Assembly: GCF_000425485.1 (NCBI RefSeq)
Contig: NZ_AUDN01000008.1
Location: 124,001-188,000 of the forward strand
DNA: 64,000 bases
From: Flavobacterium tegetincola DSM 22377
GTDB lineage: Bacteria > Bacteroidota > Bacteroidia > Flavobacteriales > Flavobacteriaceae
Direction: 5' to 3'
Shown: positions 33,214-43,800 of the stretch, piece after piece
Numbering within the stretch: the stretch's first letter is position 1
Layout: each line of letters begins with the position of its first letter
Program-made: the position numbers and the translations under genes
Notes under the pieces: generated by a model
Told to the model about the DNA's origin: nothing
What the model saw: only the letters and a program-made list of their open reading frames with translations
Database searches by the model: none

Positions 33214-34128
33214 TTAGTAATTCCACATATCTTGTTCAAAATCTCTGATTTTGTCCTTCACGCGTTCTGCTTCTAGCAATTGCAACTGTGAATTATCCTT
33301 CATGTATTTTTCAATCTCACGATCTCCGTACACATTCTCTTCTTGATAAATTACCGCGCTAAAACGTCTAGAGTTTAGCAAACGGTCAAATGAAACTGGA
33401 GCTGCTGAATTCCTATCGTTAAATGCATAGGACTGATTCAATATTTCTCGTGCTGCTGGAAAGTAAATCCAAAACAACTCAATAGCTATCGCATCATCAT
33501 TCCCAGAATCTCTTGCCTCTTTTGCAACAGGACAAATCCCGATCATTCTGTATTTTAATTCGCCTTGACGTTTGTCAAAATACCACATTCCTTTGATCTT
33601 GTAACCCGAAACATCTTGCGACACTAAAAATCGTTCGTCAATGTACTGTGGATCCAACACTTTTTTACCCGACATATAGTCATCGTAATACGTGTTAATC
33701 TCATCACGTCCAGCATCAATAGTATCTCTAAATTTGAAAGAGTTTTCCATTTCTTTCAAAGTACGTTTTGTATTGAAATAGCTATCAGCATACACTTCAG
33801 TTATACTACCATCTTTAATACCTCCAAGAAGTACATGAAAAAGGGATCTTCTGTTTGGTCCGATGTTAGCCGTATCAATAGGGAAATATAGAGGGAAATT
33901 CACTCTTTCATCTAGATCGATGACTTCCCAAACTGCTTTGCCCATTAAGATATCACGATCGTCCACAAACCCGTAAGGCAATGGCTTATCATTATCTGCG
34001 AGCAATTGCGCCTCCGATTTCTTACCGATTTCTTCTGGAGTTTTTGCGTTCAACAAGTTAGATTGTGCAGAAGCTGTAACGCTACCTGCTACTAAAATGA
34101 TTAGTGATAAAAAGTTTCTACAATTCAT
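33214..34128 (-). CDS. gldN: gliding motility / type IX secretion protein GldN
   Basis: A 304-residue periplasmic protein: signal peptide (LSLIILVAGSVTASAQS), then the mature GldN/PorN domain with PLPYGFVDDRDILMGKAVWE, FPLYFPIDTANIGPNRRSLF and KGMWYFDKRQGELKYRMIGI. GldN binds the GldK ring lipoprotein at the outer membrane of the type IX secretion system and is needed for protein export and gliding. It is the last gene of the run gldK-gldL-gldM-gldN, 49 bases after gldM. Confidence 0.97.
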   Translation of the reverse strand: MNCRNFLSLIILVAGSVTASAQSNLLNAKTPEEIGKKSEAQLLADNDKPLPYGFVDDRDILMGKAVWEVIDLDERVNFPLYFPIDTANIGPNRRSLFHVLLGGIKDGSITEVYADSYFNTKRTLKEMENSFKFRDTIDAGRDEINTYYDDYMSGKKVLDPQYIDERFLVSQDVSGYKIKGMWYFDKRQGELKYRMIGICPVAKEARDSGNDDAIAIELFWIYFPAAREILNQSYAFNDRNSAAPVSFDRLLNSRRFSAVIYQEENVYGDREIEKYMKDNSQLQLLEAERVKDKIRDFEQDMWNY

Positions 34129-34177: not shown

Positions 34178-35710
34178 TTATTTAATTTCGTAAAAAGCAG
34201 GTGCAGTTTGACGCAAGATAATTGGAGAACCTTCAATTTTAGTTTTAATCTCAGAAATTGTAACGATATCACCTCTCGATGCTCTAGCCATTGCAGCCTC
34301 ACATTGCTTGTTAACTCTATCACCATTCACAACAACTGAAGGCTGACCTGACACTCTAAAAGTAAATTGTGTTACTTTTAAGTTTACATCAAAATCAAAA
34401 TCAACTAATTGTGCTGTAATTTGAGAAACAGCTAAACGCCCTTTTGCTCCAGATGTTTCACCAACAGTTCCACCAATTGCACCTTGTGGAGCAGGAATAT
34501 TTTTAATCCTGAATACTTTCTTATCATTTGCGGAAGTTCCATCAGGCAACTTACCAGTAACGTTAATCACAACTTCAGCACCTTGACCAGGACTCATATT
34601 ATATTTACCATTTCCTGCTTTAGTTAATCCTGCTCCTGATGCATTAACATCTGAATCAGAAACACCTGCAAAAGATATAGTCATTGGATTAACAACACCT
34701 CTGTACACAACATTCATTTTATCAGCAGAAATCGTAGCAGAATTAGGACGAGGTACAACAACGTACGTACCATTAAAAGGTAAATTAATTGGTTTACCAT
34801 TTTCCATGAAGTTAAAAGATCCTCCAATTTTTTGCTCACCAACTCCACCAGCTACCATAGATAAAACAGCTTGACCATTTTCTAATTTTCCTGGACCTTT
34901 AAAATCTGTAAATTTTGCGTTAGGGTCATATTTCCCTAAAACTACTTTACCAGTAACTTTTTCGCCTTGGAAATAAGCATTCTTATCAAGAACCACGATT
35001 GCTTGAAACTTACTCATAGAAGCTTCACTCATAGCCGCTTTTCCTAAAGCAGCACTGATTACATCAGATTCTGCTTTTTTTGCATCACTTTGCCAAGCTG
35101 ATAATTTTGCTAAAGATGCAATTGCTGGAAAGCCTTGAAAATGATATTCTAAAAACTTTACTTTAATACCATCTTTATTTTCAACATCAGATATATCAAA
35201 AGCGTTATTTACTTGATTCAAAACACTAGCGTATTTTGCTTCTGTTCCTAAAGCAGCTTTCATTTCAGATTTGTAAGTCTCGATCGCACTCATAACCGCA
35301 TTTCCACGATCAGACAAACCTGTACTTGCAAACCAACTGTTATTTAGGTTATCTGCCTTATCCATTTCTTCGTAAGGAAGTTTTCCCTCTTCTGCTTCTA
35401 CTCCTGTTAAAACTTCTCCTTTTGCTGTTGCAACAAAGTCAAAGAATTTTTTTGTAGCTGCTTCAACTTTATGTCCTGTAACTGCAGCTGCGATAAAGTC
35501 ACCTTTCGATTCACTAGCTTTCGCATCAAGCGCAGCCATCATTTGTTGATTGGATAGATTTGAAGTCTCATTTGCAGCTTCGAATTTTTCATTCATCATA
35601 CCAAATGCCGAAAGTACTTCTTTGGACATATTTAATGCTAACATCGCGATGAAAACCAAGTACATTAGGTTAATCATCTTTTGTCTAGGGGTTAATTTTC
35701 CTCCTGCCAT
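34178..35710 (-). CDS. gldM: gliding motility / type IX secretion motor protein GldM
   Basis: A 510-residue protein with a short cytoplasmic N-terminus (MAGGKLTPRQKMINLMYLVF), a single membrane helix (about residues 13-30, LMYLVFIAMLALNMS) and a long periplasmic part with several Ig-like domains, the last with KVTQFTFRVSGQPSVVVNGD. GldM dimers form the motor shaft with GldL and use the proton gradient to drive secretion and gliding. Length and layout are as in Flavobacterium johnsoniae. Confidence 0.97.
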   Translation of the reverse strand: MAGGKLTPRQKMINLMYLVFIAMLALNMSKEVLSAFGMMNEKFEAANETSNLSNQQMMAALDAKASESKGDFIAAAVTGHKVEAATKKFFDFVATAKGEVLTGVEAEEGKLPYEEMDKADNLNNSWFASTGLSDRGNAVMSAIETYKSEMKAALGTEAKYASVLNQVNNAFDISDVENKDGIKVKFLEYHFQGFPAIASLAKLSAWQSDAKKAESDVISAALGKAAMSEASMSKFQAIVVLDKNAYFQGEKVTGKVVLGKYDPNAKFTDFKGPGKLENGQAVLSMVAGGVGEQKIGGSFNFMENGKPINLPFNGTYVVVPRPNSATISADKMNVVYRGVVNPMTISFAGVSDSDVNASGAGLTKAGNGKYNMSPGQGAEVVINVTGKLPDGTSANDKKVFRIKNIPAPQGAIGGTVGETSGAKGRLAVSQITAQLVDFDFDVNLKVTQFTFRVSGQPSVVVNGDRVNKQCEAAMARASRGDIVTISEIKTKIEGSPIILRQTAPAFYEIK

Positions 35711-35761: not shown

Positions 35762-36409
35762 TTATCCTTTGTTACTCATTGCAGAAAGCATTCCACCATA
35801 AACGTTGTTCAATGAAGCAATATTTGCTGTCATAGACTGCATTTGGTCTTTTAATTTAGATGCGTTATCAGCGATTTCTTTGTTAGCCTCAGCATTTCTA
35901 GAAGCACTTTCCAATTGTACTTTGTACAAACTGTTTAATGATTCCATTTGCGCAGCAGCCATAGACAATTCTTCACTGTATTTTTTAGTTGCAGCAATTC
36001 CGTCAGCAGCTGGAGAAATACCTTTAGCAGCAGATTCGAAATTCTTGATGCTGTTTCCTAAACTTGCCATCATTTGACCGTCAATTTTTGCTTCTTTTAA
36101 TAAGTTATCCAATTTTTGAGATAATAAACCTTGTGCTTCAGTAGGATTTTCTTTTTTCAATTCTACTTTTTTAGCTTGACCACCTGCTAATTCTGGGTAA
36201 ACCAATGTCCAATCCAGTTCGTTGTCTACTGGTTCAAAAGCCGAAAGTGCAAAAATCAATGCCTCCACGACAAGACCAATTGTAAGCATTAAATTACCTG
36301 TAAGAAATCCAAATTCGATGTGAGTAATTTTAAATAATGCTCCAAGGATAACAACCGCAGCTCCCATACCGTAAGCGAAATTCATTGTTTTTTTGCTTAA
36401 TAATGCCAT
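35762..36409 (-). CDS. gldL: gliding motility / type IX secretion motor protein GldL
   Basis: A 215-residue inner-membrane protein with two N-terminal helices (NFAYGMGAAVVILGALFKI and LMLTIGLVVEALIFALSAFE), followed by a cytoplasmic helical tail (MAALLSKKTM-type start, coiled coil near 95-200). The conserved glutamates in the second helix (EALIF and AFEP) are likely proton-path residues. GldL and GldM form the rotary motor of type IX secretion. It is 51 bases from gldM and 68 from gldK. Confidence 0.96.
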   Translation of the reverse strand: MALLSKKTMNFAYGMGAAVVILGALFKITHIEFGFLTGNLMLTIGLVVEALIFALSAFEPVDNELDWTLVYPELAGGQAKKVELKKENPTEAQGLLSQKLDNLLKEAKIDGQMMASLGNSIKNFESAAKGISPAADGIAATKKYSEELSMAAAQMESLNSLYKVQLESASRNAEANKEIADNASKLKDQMQSMTANIASLNNVYGGMLSAMSNKG

Positions 36410-36477: not shown

Positions 36478-37860
36478 TTATTTATTCACCCCTGTGGTTT
36501 CAGTTCCCATATAATCTTGAACAGTACGGAATCCGATGTAACTTCTCGCTGTATCAGCATATTCGAAATCACGTGTGCTTACTTGTAACATATAAGCTAC
36601 ATCTTTCCAAGAACCACCACGTAATACTTTTCTGAAGTTTTTACTGTCTGGCACATTTGGATTCATTGTAGAAACAAATTCGTAAGCTCCTGCATCATAA
36701 GAAGAATCCGTCCATTCTGAAACGTTTCCTGCCATGTTATAAAGGTTATATCCATTTGGATCGTATGACTTGGCTTCAACAGTGTACAAAGCACCATCAG
36801 CAGCATAGTCACCACGATTTGGTTTAAAGTTAGCTAAGAAACATGCTCTATCGTTTTTAGTGTAAGGACCACCCCATGGGTAAGTACCTGATTGCAAACC
36901 ACCTCTAGCAGCGTATTCCCATTCTGCTTCCATCGGCAAACGGAAAGAGTTAATTAAATTACGACCTTTCTTACCTTTAGATTTAATGTGTGAGTTTTTA
37001 TACAAAGTTCTCCATGCACAGAACGCTTTTGCTTGCTTCCAGTTTACACCCACTACAGGATAATCGCTGTATGCTTGGTGCCAGAAATAATCATTGTGCA
37101 TTGGCTCATTATAAGAGTAAGCAAAATCTTTAATCCAAGATGTAGTATCTGGATAAATTTCTACTGGTTCAGATTTTTTAATAAAACCTTTTCTTCCTTT
37201 TTTCTTAACGGCGTCATTTAAATTAACTTCCGTGTAACGAAATTGCAATTTACTAACGTCGATTGTGCGCAATCCATTGTAAGATTCCTCTAAAGGTAAG
37301 TACATCGAGTCCATTACTTCAGAATAATACTCATCTGGATACTTTGCCGTATCGGTAATCAACTTCACTTTCTTATTTACTTTACGTCCTGCATACATAT
37401 CGTCTTCTGTACCGATACTGTAATAGTTTTCGTACATGTATTTATCATAAGGAGTCATGGTCTCTGGATTTGCATCAGCAAACGCAAAATCTCCAATGGA
37501 GGTACCTTTATTTCCACCAGTACTTGTCTGACCTTGATCTTCAGCCATAATAGCCAATCGAACACGGATTGTAGAATCTTTTACCCATTCTACAAACTGA
37601 CGGTACTCACTGTTTGTGATTTCAGTTTCATCCATATAGAATGAACGAACTGTAACTGTTTTAGTTGGAGCATCACCAATATTAGCCAAATCATCATCTG
37701 ATTTACCCATAATGTAGGAACCTCCAGGAACTAAAGACATTCCATAAGGTTTTTCAGGATGCCATTTTTTTCCTTGAACTCCGACTAACTCCCCTTTGTC
37801 TCCTGAACCACAGCTGAACAAAAATGAGGATAATGCTGCAAATGCAATGAACTTCTTCAT
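36478..37860 (-). CDS. gldK: gliding motility / type IX secretion lipoprotein GldK
   Basis: A 460-residue lipoprotein: the lipobox is LFSC with Cys17. The body has the formylglycine-generating-enzyme (SUMF1) fold: MGKSDDDLANIGDAPTKTV near residue 52, FYMDETEITNSEYRQFVEW, RLPMEAEWEYAARGGLQSGT and MAGNVSEWTDSSYD, ending LRGGSWKDVAYMLQVSTRDF. GldK forms the outer-membrane ring of type IX secretion with GldN. It is not thought to have catalytic activity; the copper ligands of true formylglycine enzymes were not looked for residue by residue. It is the first gene of the gld operon. Confidence 0.96.
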   Translation of the reverse strand: MKKFIAFAALSSFLFSCGSGDKGELVGVQGKKWHPEKPYGMSLVPGGSYIMGKSDDDLANIGDAPTKTVTVRSFYMDETEITNSEYRQFVEWVKDSTIRVRLAIMAEDQGQTSTGGNKGTSIGDFAFADANPETMTPYDKYMYENYYSIGTEDDMYAGRKVNKKVKLITDTAKYPDEYYSEVMDSMYLPLEESYNGLRTIDVSKLQFRYTEVNLNDAVKKKGRKGFIKKSEPVEIYPDTTSWIKDFAYSYNEPMHNDYFWHQAYSDYPVVGVNWKQAKAFCAWRTLYKNSHIKSKGKKGRNLINSFRLPMEAEWEYAARGGLQSGTYPWGGPYTKNDRACFLANFKPNRGDYAADGALYTVEAKSYDPNGYNLYNMAGNVSEWTDSSYDAGAYEFVSTMNPNVPDSKNFRKVLRGGSWKDVAYMLQVSTRDFEYADTARSYIGFRTVQDYMGTETTGVNK

Positions 37861-38004: not shown

Positions 38005-39156
38005 TTAAATAATGCTTTTTCGTTGCGTCTTCCACCAGCGCTCAGGGATTTCCTGTTCAATTGCACCTAAATAATCTTCATACGAACACGGTAATAACGT
38101 TTTTTTCACTGTTTTAGTATGAGAATGAATCATTTGCGAGACTTCAATCCACCATCGGTCTGTGATATCACTCTTGTAAAACACCAATTCTTCTTGTTCG
38201 AGTGGCACAATATATTTAAAATAATTATCTTTTGCACTAAAAGGATACTCATTTGACCGATATTGATAGCCTTCCAAAAAGTACCAAATGATTTGTGCAA
38301 TTAAAGCCGCTTCTGGTTTTGAATTATTATGATTAAATATCCCAAATAATGTGACTTTATCACTAATTCCCGCATATCGTGCTAAAGAACATATTTCTTT
38401 ACCGTTAAAACCATTCGGGGTAAAAGTAACAAAATTACCTGAACTTGACGATTGGATTGATGTTAAATCTACACTTACTATATCAGCATCTCTAAATATG
38501 GGTTCAGAAACACTAATATTATTGCAGATCTCGCCCAAACGGTAGCTTTCAAAGAATAATTTGTCCATCAAATCAATTTCTTCTTGCGCATTTAAGTAGG
38601 TTTGATACCCCACAACACTATAATTAAACAGGTTATTGGGCTCTTCAATGATCATGCGTGTTAAGTATGACGAGGACATGTCTGCGGCGTTTTCCTTTCC
38701 TAAATCAAATTTACTATCAATAGAAACTAAATTTACCATTTGCTCCAATACATCATAAGCGCGGTACATGGCGTACGTTAGATCCTGACTACCGCCAATG
38801 ATAATTGGAATAATATTTTTCTTAATAAGGGATGAAACCACGGATTTTACCGCAAAATAGGTATCGCTTAATTCCTCACCTGCACGAATATCGCCTAAAT
38901 CTGCAAAACTTGTATGCCAATTTCCAGGATATAAGCCGTAAAATTCTTTGCGGATTTCTGTTAAATCAAGTTCACCCACTTGTATTGCTCCACCTCTATT
39001 TTCCAAAACGCCAATAATCGCAATTTGAACTTTATCTAAATCTGGAAAATCAGTTTCTGAATGCAGAACCACTTTGCTTCCCAGATTTTGAGAAGAAAGC
39101 GATTGAACATAGTGGATCATTTCTTTATTCAGTGGATGTAAAAAATCAAATTCCAT
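38005..39156 (-). CDS. arginase/formimidoylglutamase-like protein with degenerate metal site
   Basis: A 383-residue protein of the ureohydrolase fold (IIPIIIGGSQDLTYAMYRAY near residue 117, LVSIDSKFDLG near 143, VSVDLTSIQSS near 228). In active family members these read GGxHD, DAHxD and DxDxxDP. Here His is replaced by Gln124, His by Lys149, and the first and last Asp of the third motif by Ser228 and Ser233, with Asp147, Asp151 and Asp230 kept. About half of the manganese ligands are gone, so catalysis is unlikely, even though annotation pipelines often call such proteins formimidoylglutamase. Three bases separate it from topA upstream and 144 from gldK downstream; the linkage is, from memory, conserved in Flavobacterium. 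Confidence 0.85.
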   Translation of the reverse strand: MEFDFLHPLNKEMIHYVQSLSSQNLGSKVVLHSETDFPDLDKVQIAIIGVLENRGGAIQVGELDLTEIRKEFYGLYPGNWHTSFADLGDIRAGEELSDTYFAVKSVVSSLIKKNIIPIIIGGSQDLTYAMYRAYDVLEQMVNLVSIDSKFDLGKENAADMSSSYLTRMIIEEPNNLFNYSVVGYQTYLNAQEEIDLMDKLFFESYRLGEICNNISVSEPIFRDADIVSVDLTSIQSSSSGNFVTFTPNGFNGKEICSLARYAGISDKVTLFGIFNHNNSKPEAALIAQIIWYFLEGYQYRSNEYPFSAKDNYFKYIVPLEQEELVFYKSDITDRWWIEVSQMIHSHTKTVKKTLLPCSYEDYLGAIEQEIPERWWKTQRKSII

Positions 39157-39159
39157 TTA

Positions 39160-41700
39160 TTATTTCTTTTTTACTGGTGCTTTTTTTGCTGTTGTTGTTG
39201 TTTTCTTTGTTGCAGTTGCTTTCTTCGCAGGTGCTTTTTTCGCAGCTGTTTTCTTAGCAGGCGTCTTTTTAGCAATCATCTCTGTTACTTCCGCAAATGT
39301 CAATGCAGCCGCGTCTACTTCTTTAGGCAACTCAATTTTAATTTTACCTTTTGTAATTACTGAGCGACCCCAACGCGCTTTTTCCACCTTAATTCCTTCG
39401 TCAGGCCAATGATGGAGTACTTTATCAATTTCCTTCTGAATTTTATCTTCAATCAACTCAACAATATCTGCTTGTGAAAGGTTATCAAAATTGTATTTCT
39501 TGTTCACATTGATGAACATACCGCTCCACTTCAAGAATGGACCAAAACGCCCCACTCCTTTTTGGACCGGTTCTTCTTTGTAAGTTGCAATGGGTGCGTC
39601 CGCTTTTTCCTTCTCATCAATCAGTTCTTCTGCACGAACTAAAGTCACATCCATTGGATCTTCTCCTTTAGGCAATGAAATAAACATCGTTCCGAAACGA
39701 ACGTAAGGTCCAAAACGACCGTTATTTACTTCTACTTCTTCTCCTTTATATACGCCAAGATTTTTTGGCAATAAAAACAATTTTAACGCATCTTCTAAAG
39801 TGATTGTACCAATATTTTGCTCATTCAATAAACTTGCAAATATTTTTTCTTCATCTTCAGCATTACCTATTTGAGCCATCGGGCCAAATTTACCTAAACG
39901 AACACTCACCGGCTTCCCTGATTTTGGGTCGGTTCCTAAAATACGTTCTCCTGATTCCCGTTCAGCGTTTGCTTCAACATCTTTTACATTAGGATGAAAC
40001 TGGTCGTAAAACTCTTGCATCATTTTATGCCAATCGACGTTTCCTTCTGCAATTTCATCAAAATCTTGCTCTACTTTCGCTGTAAAATTGTAATCTAAAA
40101 TGCGTTCAAAGTTTTTAACTAAGAAATCAGTCACGATTGTACCAATATCCGTAGGTACTAATTTCCCTTTATCAGAACCTGTATTTTCTGTTAACAACTT
40201 CTCTCCTACTTTTCCAGCAGCCAAAGTAAGTTGTGTGTAATTTCGTTCTTGACCTTCTAATGTTCCTTTTTCAACATAATTTCTGTTGATGATAGTTGAA
40301 ATAGTTGGGGCATAAGTAGAAGGACGACCAATACCTAATTCTTCCAATTTCTTCACTAGAGAAGCTTCCGTATATCGAGCAGGAGCTCTTGTATAACGTT
40401 CGGTTGCTGTAATATAATTATTTTGTAGTTTTTCACTTACTTTTAAAGCAGGCAATAACCCTTCTTGTTCTTCATCATCCTCGTCATTTCCTTCCAAATA
40501 TACTTTTAAGAATCCTTCAAAAAGCAATACTTCTCCAGTTGCCGCGAAAATTTCGTCGTGATTATTGGCTTGAATTTTTACGTTTGTACGTTCCAATTTA
40601 GCATCACTCATTTGCGAAGCCAATGTTCTTTTCCAAATCAAATCGTACAGTCTTGCTTGATCACGGTCAATATTTACCGTATGTTGCGACATATCGGTTG
40701 GACGAATCGCTTCGTGGGCTTCTTGAGCTCCTTTACTTTTATTGGTAAATGTTCTCGGATGAGAAAATTCCTTTCCATAAGAACGAATAATCTCCGCTTC
40801 AGCCGCATTCATTGCATCTTTTGAAAGATTCACACTGTCCGTTCTCATATAGGTAATAAGTCCCGCTTCGTATAATCTTTGTGCCAATTGCATCGTGATT
40901 CCAACAGGCAAATACAATTTACGAGCTGCTTCTTGTTGCAAAGTCGAAGTCGTAAAAGGTGCTGTTGGCGATTTTTTGGTAGGTTTTGTTTCTAAATCCG
41001 CTACCTTATATATAGAGCTACTATTTTTATTTAAAAAGTCTTCTGCTTCTTTTTTCGTGGAAAAATTCTTAGGTAATTTTGCTTTGAATGTTTTTCCAGA
41101 CTCGTTTGCAAATTCAGCTACAATTGAATACGATGCTATTGCATTAAAGTTTTGAATTTCTCGTTCACGTTCTACAATCAAACGCACTGAAACCGACTGA
41201 ACACGTCCGGCAGATAATCCGCCTTTAATTTTTCGCCATAAAACAGGCGACAATTCATAACCCACTAAACGGTCTAAAACGCGTCGCGCTTGTTGCGCAT
41301 TTACCAAATTATAATCAATCTCTCTTGGATTATCAATTGCTTTTAAAATTGCTGTCTTTGTAATTTCGTGAAAAACAATTCGCTTGGTTTTACTTTTATC
41401 CAATTTCAATTCTTCGGCTAAATGCCAAGAAATCGCTTCACCCTCGCGATCCTCATCGGAAGCCAACCAAACCATATCGGCTTTCTTGGCAAGTCCTTTA
41501 AGTTTGGTCACCAAGGCTTTTTTATCAGGAGAAACTTCGTATTTTGGTTTAAATTTATTTTCAACATCAACCCCAATTTCTTTGGAAGGTAAATCTGCAA
41601 TATGTCCATAACTGGACTCTACTTGATAATCACTTCCTAAAAATTTCTCTATCGTTTTTGCTTTCGCAGGTGACTCCACTATCACTAAATTCTTTGCCAT
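39160..41700 (-). CDS. topA: DNA topoisomerase I
   Basis: An 846-residue type IA topoisomerase. The TOPRIM domain opens NLVIVESPAKAKTIEKFLG and has WLASDEDREGEAISWHL (residues 78-94); the catalytic tyrosine is Tyr284 in LITYMRTDS. The C-terminal half holds several topo-C repeats (GKFGPMAQIG, GRFGPYVRFG, GRFGPFLKW) with no zinc-finger cysteines, and a lysine/alanine tail (about residues 810-846) resembling histone H1 tails, which may aid DNA binding. It relaxes negative supercoils. It is the first gene of a minus-strand run that continues to the gld operon. Confidence 0.98.
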   Translation of the reverse strand: MAKNLVIVESPAKAKTIEKFLGSDYQVESSYGHIADLPSKEIGVDVENKFKPKYEVSPDKKALVTKLKGLAKKADMVWLASDEDREGEAISWHLAEELKLDKSKTKRIVFHEITKTAILKAIDNPREIDYNLVNAQQARRVLDRLVGYELSPVLWRKIKGGLSAGRVQSVSVRLIVEREREIQNFNAIASYSIVAEFANESGKTFKAKLPKNFSTKKEAEDFLNKNSSSIYKVADLETKPTKKSPTAPFTTSTLQQEAARKLYLPVGITMQLAQRLYEAGLITYMRTDSVNLSKDAMNAAEAEIIRSYGKEFSHPRTFTNKSKGAQEAHEAIRPTDMSQHTVNIDRDQARLYDLIWKRTLASQMSDAKLERTNVKIQANNHDEIFAATGEVLLFEGFLKVYLEGNDEDDEEQEGLLPALKVSEKLQNNYITATERYTRAPARYTEASLVKKLEELGIGRPSTYAPTISTIINRNYVEKGTLEGQERNYTQLTLAAGKVGEKLLTENTGSDKGKLVPTDIGTIVTDFLVKNFERILDYNFTAKVEQDFDEIAEGNVDWHKMMQEFYDQFHPNVKDVEANAERESGERILGTDPKSGKPVSVRLGKFGPMAQIGNAEDEEKIFASLLNEQNIGTITLEDALKLFLLPKNLGVYKGEEVEVNNGRFGPYVRFGTMFISLPKGEDPMDVTLVRAEELIDEKEKADAPIATYKEEPVQKGVGRFGPFLKWSGMFINVNKKYNFDNLSQADIVELIEDKIQKEIDKVLHHWPDEGIKVEKARWGRSVITKGKIKIELPKEVDAAALTFAEVTEMIAKKTPAKKTAAKKAPAKKATATKKTTTTAKKAPVKKK

Positions 41701-43425: not shown

Positions 43426-43800
43426 ATGGAGAATCACTACAAAGAAGAAGAGACTTATAAGATTATAGGACTTTGTATGGAAGTGCATAGAAATTTAGGC
43501 CCTGGACTATTAGAAATAATTTATAAGGATGCTTTAGAAATAGAATTCAAAGAAAATAATATCCCTTTTGTAAGAGAGAAAGAATTCATTGTAGAATATA
43601 AAGGAATAATTTTACCCCATAGATTTAATGCAGATTTTGTAGTAAATGAAGATATAATATTAGAAGTTAAAGCCATAAAAGAATTTTCAAATGAACATGT
43701 TGCTCAAATTTTAAATTATATAAAATTATCTAATTCAGGAATTGGCTTGTTAGTAAATTTCCAAACCAAATCTTTACAATATAAAAGATATGTGATTTAG
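43426..43800 (+). CDS. GxxExxY protein (PDDEXK_3 nuclease-like)
   Basis: A 124-residue protein with the family's namesake motif Gly27-Leu-Leu-Glu30-Ile-Ile-Tyr33 and the likely nuclease core Asp70-x9-Glu80-x-Lys82 (RFNADFVV ... ILEVKAIKE), matching PD-(D/E)xK. Opening residues EEETYKIIGLCMEVHRNLGP are typical. The role of the family is unknown; copies are scattered through Bacteroidetes, Planctomycetes and others between unrelated genes. It lies between miaB and the sigma-54 type activator, inside an inverted repeat. Confidence 0.9.
   Translation: MENHYKEEETYKIIGLCMEVHRNLGPGLLEIIYKDALEIEFKENNIPFVREKEFIVEYKGIILPHRFNADFVVNEDIILEVKAIKEFSNEHVAQILNYIKLSNSGIGLLVNFQTKSLQYKRYVI

Follow-up and report, generated by a model that had tools for sequence, protein, structure and literature searches.

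A single-origin pseudo-ureohydrolase family of Bacteroidota, often encoded beside gldKLMN, with a degenerate metal site and its own C-terminal module

Introduction

The closest structural relatives of the protein described here are HutG (TIGR01227) and the T. cruzi formiminoglutamase (2a0m, 4mxr), which share the fold predicted for its residues 20-301 (VIA-align Z about 30). Pseudo-ureohydrolases as such are already known. The arginase-like protein of T. brucei reportedly evolved without a manganese cluster (Hai et al. 2015), and it presumably also lacks the C-terminal module discussed below. To judge from the titles of its PDB entries (4rhi, 4rhm), it has an arginase fold without the binuclear metal cluster, as does the protein studied here. 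In bacteria, MetCb/MfmB (8snf, 8ryi, 8x3g) is a metal-free ureohydrolase-fold subunit of metformin hydrolase that binds the active MetCa (PMC11271267).

The gene under study lies in the window, the whole stretch of 64,000 nt of Flavobacterium tegetincola DNA that was analysed. It adjoins the cluster encoding GldK, GldL, GldM and GldN, whose order is widely kept. The original prediction described it as a full-length gene, tight to topA and upstream of gldKLMN, which encodes an arginase-fold protein with a broken metal site, and suggested that a conserved pseudoenzyme could have a structural or regulatory role in secretion or gliding. What was noted about the metal site holds, and for more than this one gene; the suggested role fared differently. 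ARG is the name used below for this pseudo-ureohydrolase ORF.

Results

The gene, its neighbours and its predicted fold

Measurement agrees with the earlier description of the gene as full length, close to topA and upstream of gldKLMN (Table 1). All five neighbours, topA (TIGR01051), GldK, GldL, GldM and GldN, score above their own NCBIfam cut-offs. By eye, no signal peptide is evident at the start of ARG, MEFDFLHPLNKEM, and the protein is probably cytoplasmic. Further along the window, positions 43426-43800 (+) encode a 124-aa GxxExxY protein (TIGR04256, 139.9 bits vs a cut-off of 35), placed between a miaB-like ORF and a sigma-54-type regulator, both named by eye.

Table 1. Features of the ARG locus, in window coordinates
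Feature	Position	Strand	Basis or remark
ARG, pseudo-ureohydrolase ORF, 383 aa	38005..39156	-	ATG start; Pfam and predicted fold
Degenerate metal motif 1, GGSQD, residues 121-125 (canonical GGxHD)	38782..38796	-	alignment
Degenerate metal motif 2, DSKFD, residues 147-151 (canonical DAHxD)	38704..38718	-	alignment
Degenerate metal motif 3, SVDLTSI, residues 228-234 (canonical SxDxDxx)	38455..38475	-	alignment
C-terminal extension, residues 300-383 (F326, RWW334-336, C357, D361-Y362)	38008..38259	-	alignment
topA, directly upstream of ARG	39160..41700	-	3 nt gap
gldK, next downstream of ARG	36478..37860	-	144 nt gap
gldL	35762..36409	-	NCBIfam profile
gldM	34178..35710	-	NCBIfam profile
gldN	33214..34128	-	NCBIfam profile

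Membership of the arginase/ureohydrolase superfamily is supported by both profile and predicted structure. ARG matches the Pfam family PF00491 (Arginase) with an E-value of 1.3e-8 and 35.1 bits, above the cut-off of 22, and its AlphaFold2 model (mean pLDDT 81) predicts an alpha/beta ureohydrolase-like fold over residues 14-302, with the C-terminal part as an extra. The best VIA-align match of the model is 2a0m (Z 30.2, rmsd 2.6 A, 268 aligned residues), and Foldseek returns an E-value of 5.3e-15. Among NCBIfam models, the best match is hutG (TIGR01227) with 53.8 bits, well short of the equivalog cut-off of 229.15; the name formimidoylglutamase would therefore be a misannotation of ARG.

Loss of the metal ligands

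Three of the six ligand columns are replaced, one in each of the three altered motifs, just as originally noted. In what we take to be rat arginase numbering (H101, D124, H126, D128, D232 and D234), the changes are H101 to Q124, H126 to K149 and D234 to T232, while D124, D128 and D232 are retained as D147, D151 and D230. With three ligands out of six, the protein in the window lacks the complete set of a catalytic Mn-dependent ureohydrolase. The H-to-Q change alone is no proof of inactivity, since the wild-type T. cruzi formiminoglutamase has Asn at the first-His position (N114, as implied by the PDB title 'N114H variant'). The lost second His and the lost last Asp weigh more.

Relatives were drawn from two sources: one scan of genome contigs supplied 80 loci, kept out of 162 confirmed, and 296 genomes sampled across the phylum supplied another 40 divergent ones. 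L122, a locus with no match, was left out, as were two copies of the window. Six rows were counted as canonical (two of the window's genome and L124-L127), and 145 family members remain. The two rows of the window's genome are further PF00491 genes that lie on other contigs and keep all six ligands; in two of the six canonical rows, one ligand is changed to Asn.

Within the family, four is the maximum number of ligands kept by any member. The second metal site (B site) is complete in 0/145 members and the first (A site) in 16/145. The first His is kept in 17/145 and the second in 5/145, so that the A-site His is missing in 128/145 and the second His in 140/145; Lys or Arg occupies the old second-His position in 102/145. 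The last Asp is kept in 6/145 and missing in 139/145. The other Asp ligands persist far more widely, with D147 and D230 each kept in 138/145 members and D151 in 123/145. Some lineages depart from this pattern: five f2 members keep the last Asp and have lost others, Asp residues among them, and four f5 members have lost most of their Asp ligands. These counts point to an old loss with a clear pattern: no member has an intact B site, and the A site is only partly taken apart.

A single origin

In a maximum-likelihood tree of 33 ARG rows and 26 canonical rows, ARG forms one clade with support 100/100, and the split between ARG and canonical rows is recovered in 100% of 200 bootstrap trees. The placement of L123, a long branch, is unsure. 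Since twenty of the 26 canonical rows had been chosen by a D-x-H-x-D/N motif, the presence of that motif in them is not a result. This shows that the metal cluster was lost once, in an ancestor common to many families of the class.

Invariant residues and the C-terminal extension

Eight residues are identical in 145/145 family members: Q185, E218, P219, R222, G249, W291, W335 and C357. None is a metal ligand, and G249 is the only one identical in all six canonical rows aligned. Two of them, W335 and C357, are carried by the C-terminal extension of about 80 residues, a part that is missing from all four HutG-like rows of the alignment. In four f5 members (L119, L120, L121 and L123) the core is badly degraded, yet E218, P219, R222, W291, W335 and C357 are kept.

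Modelled alone, the extension reaches a pLDDT of 73. Searches with it returned nothing in Pfam or in PDB sequences, and structural comparison of this only moderate model gave a best Foldseek E-value of 0.77 and a best VIA Z of 3.7. A weak or absent fold match of this kind does not establish a new fold.

Gene order and spacing

The order topA-ARG-gldK is found in 79/80 loci, mostly of Flavobacteriaceae (80 of 162 confirmed); the contig of the remaining locus ends before gldK. A further 15 loci, one from each of 15 other families and chosen for the proximity of ARG to gldL, have the order topA-ARG-porP-gldK-gldL-gldM-gldN in 15/15 cases. Of the 74 genomes with both places listed, 54 have ARG and gldL on one strand with ARG 2.2-4.1 kb upstream, and the other 20 have it elsewhere; proximity to gldL was seen in at least one genome of 17/20 families. 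Neither topA nor gldK was found within the stretch examined in the fetched f3, f4, f8 and f9 loci. Adjacency to gldKLMN, as expected of a type IX or gliding component, is thus present in the window and in many loci, though not universal.

Spacing associates ARG with its upstream neighbour. Between topA and ARG there are no more than 10 nt in 46/80 loci and no more than 50 nt in 59/80, the spacing being loose (>50 nt) in 21/80; the ARG-gldK gap is 88-212 nt in 79/79. Such a pattern is expected of co-transcription of topA and ARG, with gldK transcribed separately, and ARG is probably co-expressed with topA in Flavobacteriaceae. The Bacteroidota promoter motif is TTG-N17-23-TAnnTTTG. A gldK promoter of its own in the 144-nt gap was considered and rejected, the motif being not above chance. 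In the window's gap, 159/1000 shuffles reach the observed score, and the full motif occurs in 3/79 gaps against a shuffled mean of 1.28 and a maximum of 4.

Several divergent loci have other neighbours. The degraded members of L120 and L121, 277-278 aa long and without motif 1, are convergent to a Mur ligase, followed by gldK, porP and a PorU-type C25 peptidase; Pfam was run on L120. Six f4 loci (L129, L147, L149, L151, L152 and L153) share one homologous gene after ARG, an S13 D-Ala-D-Ala carboxypeptidase in the two loci tested. In the f8 loci L141, L144 and L145, one of which was tested, ARG is followed by a BadF-type kinase and a SIS-domain protein. The peptidoglycan theme among these neighbours was set aside because it is different in each lineage, and it may be due to chance.

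Distribution relative to the type IX machinery

Among 345 genomes of the class, the ARG profile is matched in 323 (E 0.001 or better) and GldL in 327. Tables read by eye give 313 genomes with both, 14 with GldL only, 10 with ARG only and 8 with neither. Canonical relatives may account for a few weak ARG profile matches (e.g., G341 and G455, about 5e-4), and incomplete genomes for some of the absences. At least 90% completeness is reached by 10/14 GldL-only genomes and by 2/10 ARG-only genomes (G347 and G517).

The ten near-complete genomes with GldL and without ARG are G190, G249, G388, G571, G590, G443, G469, G492, G311 and G585. GldD is matched in eight of them, in seven over the cut-off, and three of the ten carry porP-gldK-gldL-gldM together. 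As a set, these genomes are the most telling ones for what disappears along with ARG. One of the ten, G311, was re-examined for a hidden family member. Its PF00491 match, on a short contig, was rejected as such, being canonical (GGEHT and DAHAD) with the HutG-like L002 as nearest relative.

Conversely, the genus of G517 retains ARG where secretion genes are gone. GldL is missing in 12/93 genomes of this genus (11/89 counting good assemblies only), and these 12 also lack GldM, which 7/7 GldL-positive controls have. ARG is full length in 93/93 genomes, all 12 without GldL and GldM included; a component of the type IX system would be expected to disappear with them, and in this one genus ARG is kept in 12/12. 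Two of the 12, G624 and G661, are single-contig assemblies. An ARG gene tree was built from 44 sequences, two of them outgroups and the others from 42 genomes of the genus, all 12 negatives among them; on it, GldL presence changes 8 times by parsimony. Several GldL losses follow from this, as read on a gene tree and not a species tree, which suggests repeated loss of type IX secretion inside the genus. G347, which is near-complete and has ARG and GldD without GldL, also lacks GldM; it was not counted as a loss because it is a draft and a contig could be missing.

Selection on ARG is strong in the genus of G517. The dN/dS of ARG is 0.008-0.034 in 11/20 pairs, those with measurable dS. By class, GldL-negative pairs give 0.008-0.028, mixed pairs 0.023-0.034 and GldL-positive pairs 0.009-0.031, so ARG is about equally constrained without the secretion system. 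The idea of a conserved pseudoenzyme is thereby borne out by family-wide ligand loss, single origin and strong purifying selection in this genus.

Discussion

A non-catalytic scaffold as the favoured reading

On balance, we hold it somewhat more likely than not that ARG, a protein family of one origin, is a scaffold of ureohydrolase fold that has no catalytic function and serves in housekeeping, and that its adjacency to the gld genes is inherited gene order. The protein has kept the predicted ureohydrolase fold and lost half of the ligands of the two-metal cluster. Its C-terminal extension carries the invariant W335 and C357, and its core has the invariant E218-P219-xx-R222 and W291, which canonical relatives do not share. 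ARG would carry out no ureohydrolase reaction and would instead be a scaffold or regulator, its invariant residues and C-terminal module serving to bind a partner. In many members, a Lys or Arg has replaced His126 and probably stands in for metal in offsetting the Asp residues that remain. The task of the protein would be general to the cell and independent of type IX secretion and gliding, with gldKLMN next door representing a long-conserved gene order and not a functional partner.

Some observations run counter to this scaffold reading. The ARG-(porP)-gldKLMN order is kept in 54/74 genomes, which is usually a hint of a shared process; ARG and GldL are both missing in 8/345 genomes; and the spacing to topA is loose in about a quarter of the loci (21/80). 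A more far-reaching account is conceivable, though somewhat less likely than not: early in Bacteroidota, on a single occasion, a ureohydrolase lost its activity and became a core component of the cell, its pocket now a remnant, and the C-terminal Trp/Cys module together with EPxxR and Trp291 may carry an undescribed housekeeping function outside type IX secretion, in many families and under a misleading enzyme name.

Alternative explanations

The gene order also invites the reading in the original prediction, namely that ARG assists the type IX secretion system or the gliding motor, its dead fold binding or regulating GldK, GldL, GldM or GldN from the cytoplasm as an accessory factor. The conserved order is the ground for expecting ARG to act on these proteins. 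The topA-ARG-gldK loci (79/80), the porP-type loci fetched for proximity to gldL (15/15) and the 54/74 genomes with ARG near gldL all favour it, as do the two f5 loci in which a degraded member lies two genes from gldK and near porP and a PorU-type C25 peptidase. ARG without GldL is, moreover, rare (10/345, of which only 2 are at least 90% complete). Gene order and overall co-distribution thus spoke for a strict type IX or gliding factor, and the genus of G517 spoke against it, with full-length ARG, strongly constrained where measured, in its 12 genomes without GldL and GldM. The ten near-complete genomes with GldL and no ARG point the same way, eight of them matching GldD and three holding porP-gldK-gldL-gldM together, as do the 20/74 genomes with ARG away from gldL and the gap sizes, which favour topA as the partner in transcription. 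A dedicated role in secretion or gliding is weakened by these comparisons and not supported, and the accessory-factor reading is unlikely; a secondary effect of ARG on the type IX system in Flavobacterium is possible.

ARG could still be an enzyme, with a mononuclear metal at the A site or with chemistry at Cys357 or the EPxxR cluster. Since D147, D151 and D230 are left in most members and the A site is complete in 16/145, one-metal binding or other chemistry is possible, and the invariant Cys could be catalytic. The column of E277, which we take to be the substrate-binding Glu of arginase, is still Glu in 97/145 members, yet the protein in the window has Asn there. The A-site His is missing in 128/145, the Asp residues are also lost in the five f2 members and mostly in the four f5 members, and the C-terminal module has no clear match to a known fold; surviving catalysis is improbable on these grounds. 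An inactive subunit of a mixed ureohydrolase, like MetCb/MfmB, which activates a canonical relative encoded elsewhere, has a precedent in the metal-free MetCb, needed by MetCa (PMC11271267). ARG shows the corresponding ligand substitutions, the window's genome has its two intact canonical genes, and another PF00491 gene occurs in 42/44 ARG-bearing genomes examined (table read by eye). A constant active partner is nevertheless lacking. G517, with its full-length ARG, contains no further PF00491 gene, and in G178 a family member is present where PF00491 finds no match, which makes obligate pairing unlikely; in the window's genome the canonical genes are not on the contig of ARG, whereas metCa and metCb are named together in one cluster (PMC11271267). 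We regard this alternative as very doubtful. Local decay of a formimidoylglutamase in this lineage, finally, is so improbable that it was rejected. It can draw on the weak similarity to the hutG model (53.8 bits), and the alignment, the tree and the dN/dS (near 0.02 in the genus of G517) are all contrary to it. Relatives with all ligands, beside which the present gene would be a local casualty, were not found among the 145 aligned; the loss is family-wide, with 0/145 members keeping more than four ligands and 0/145 a complete B site.

Comparison with known systems

If the scaffold reading is true, a gene present in most sampled genomes of the class (323/345) and liable to a histidine-degradation label encodes a dead enzyme with a conserved job. 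Section 12 of PMC11278836, a genome paper, names formiminoglutamase as the sole detected part of the histidine-to-glutamate pathway; the enzyme named in that section may be a misannotated pseudoenzyme of the ARG type. Species that retain ARG and lack the type IX system offer a clean means to separate the function of ARG from gliding and secretion. A description of the ARG protein was not found in open-licence literature on gldK, topA and gldKLMN, arginase, formiminoglutamase and pseudoenzymes, and may exist elsewhere.

Set against the described systems, ARG resembles each in part. Unlike HutG, it lacks the full set of metal ligands and continues at the C-terminus for about 80 further residues. 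The T. brucei arginase-like protein, also without its metal cluster, is eukaryotic, and ARG is 14% identical to 4rhi in the Foldseek alignment. MetCb and ARG are alike in being bacterial ureohydrolase-fold proteins whose metal site is lost, and the job of MetCb is that of a protein partner (PMC11271267). MetCb works with an active cognate subunit, however, and ARG has no such neighbour in the window. From GldK, GldL, GldM and GldN, finally, ARG differs in distribution, being present in genomes that lack GldL and GldM and absent from some that have GldL. What is new in comparison with these systems is a pseudo-ureohydrolase family of Bacteroidota that has a single origin and a C-terminal module of its own.
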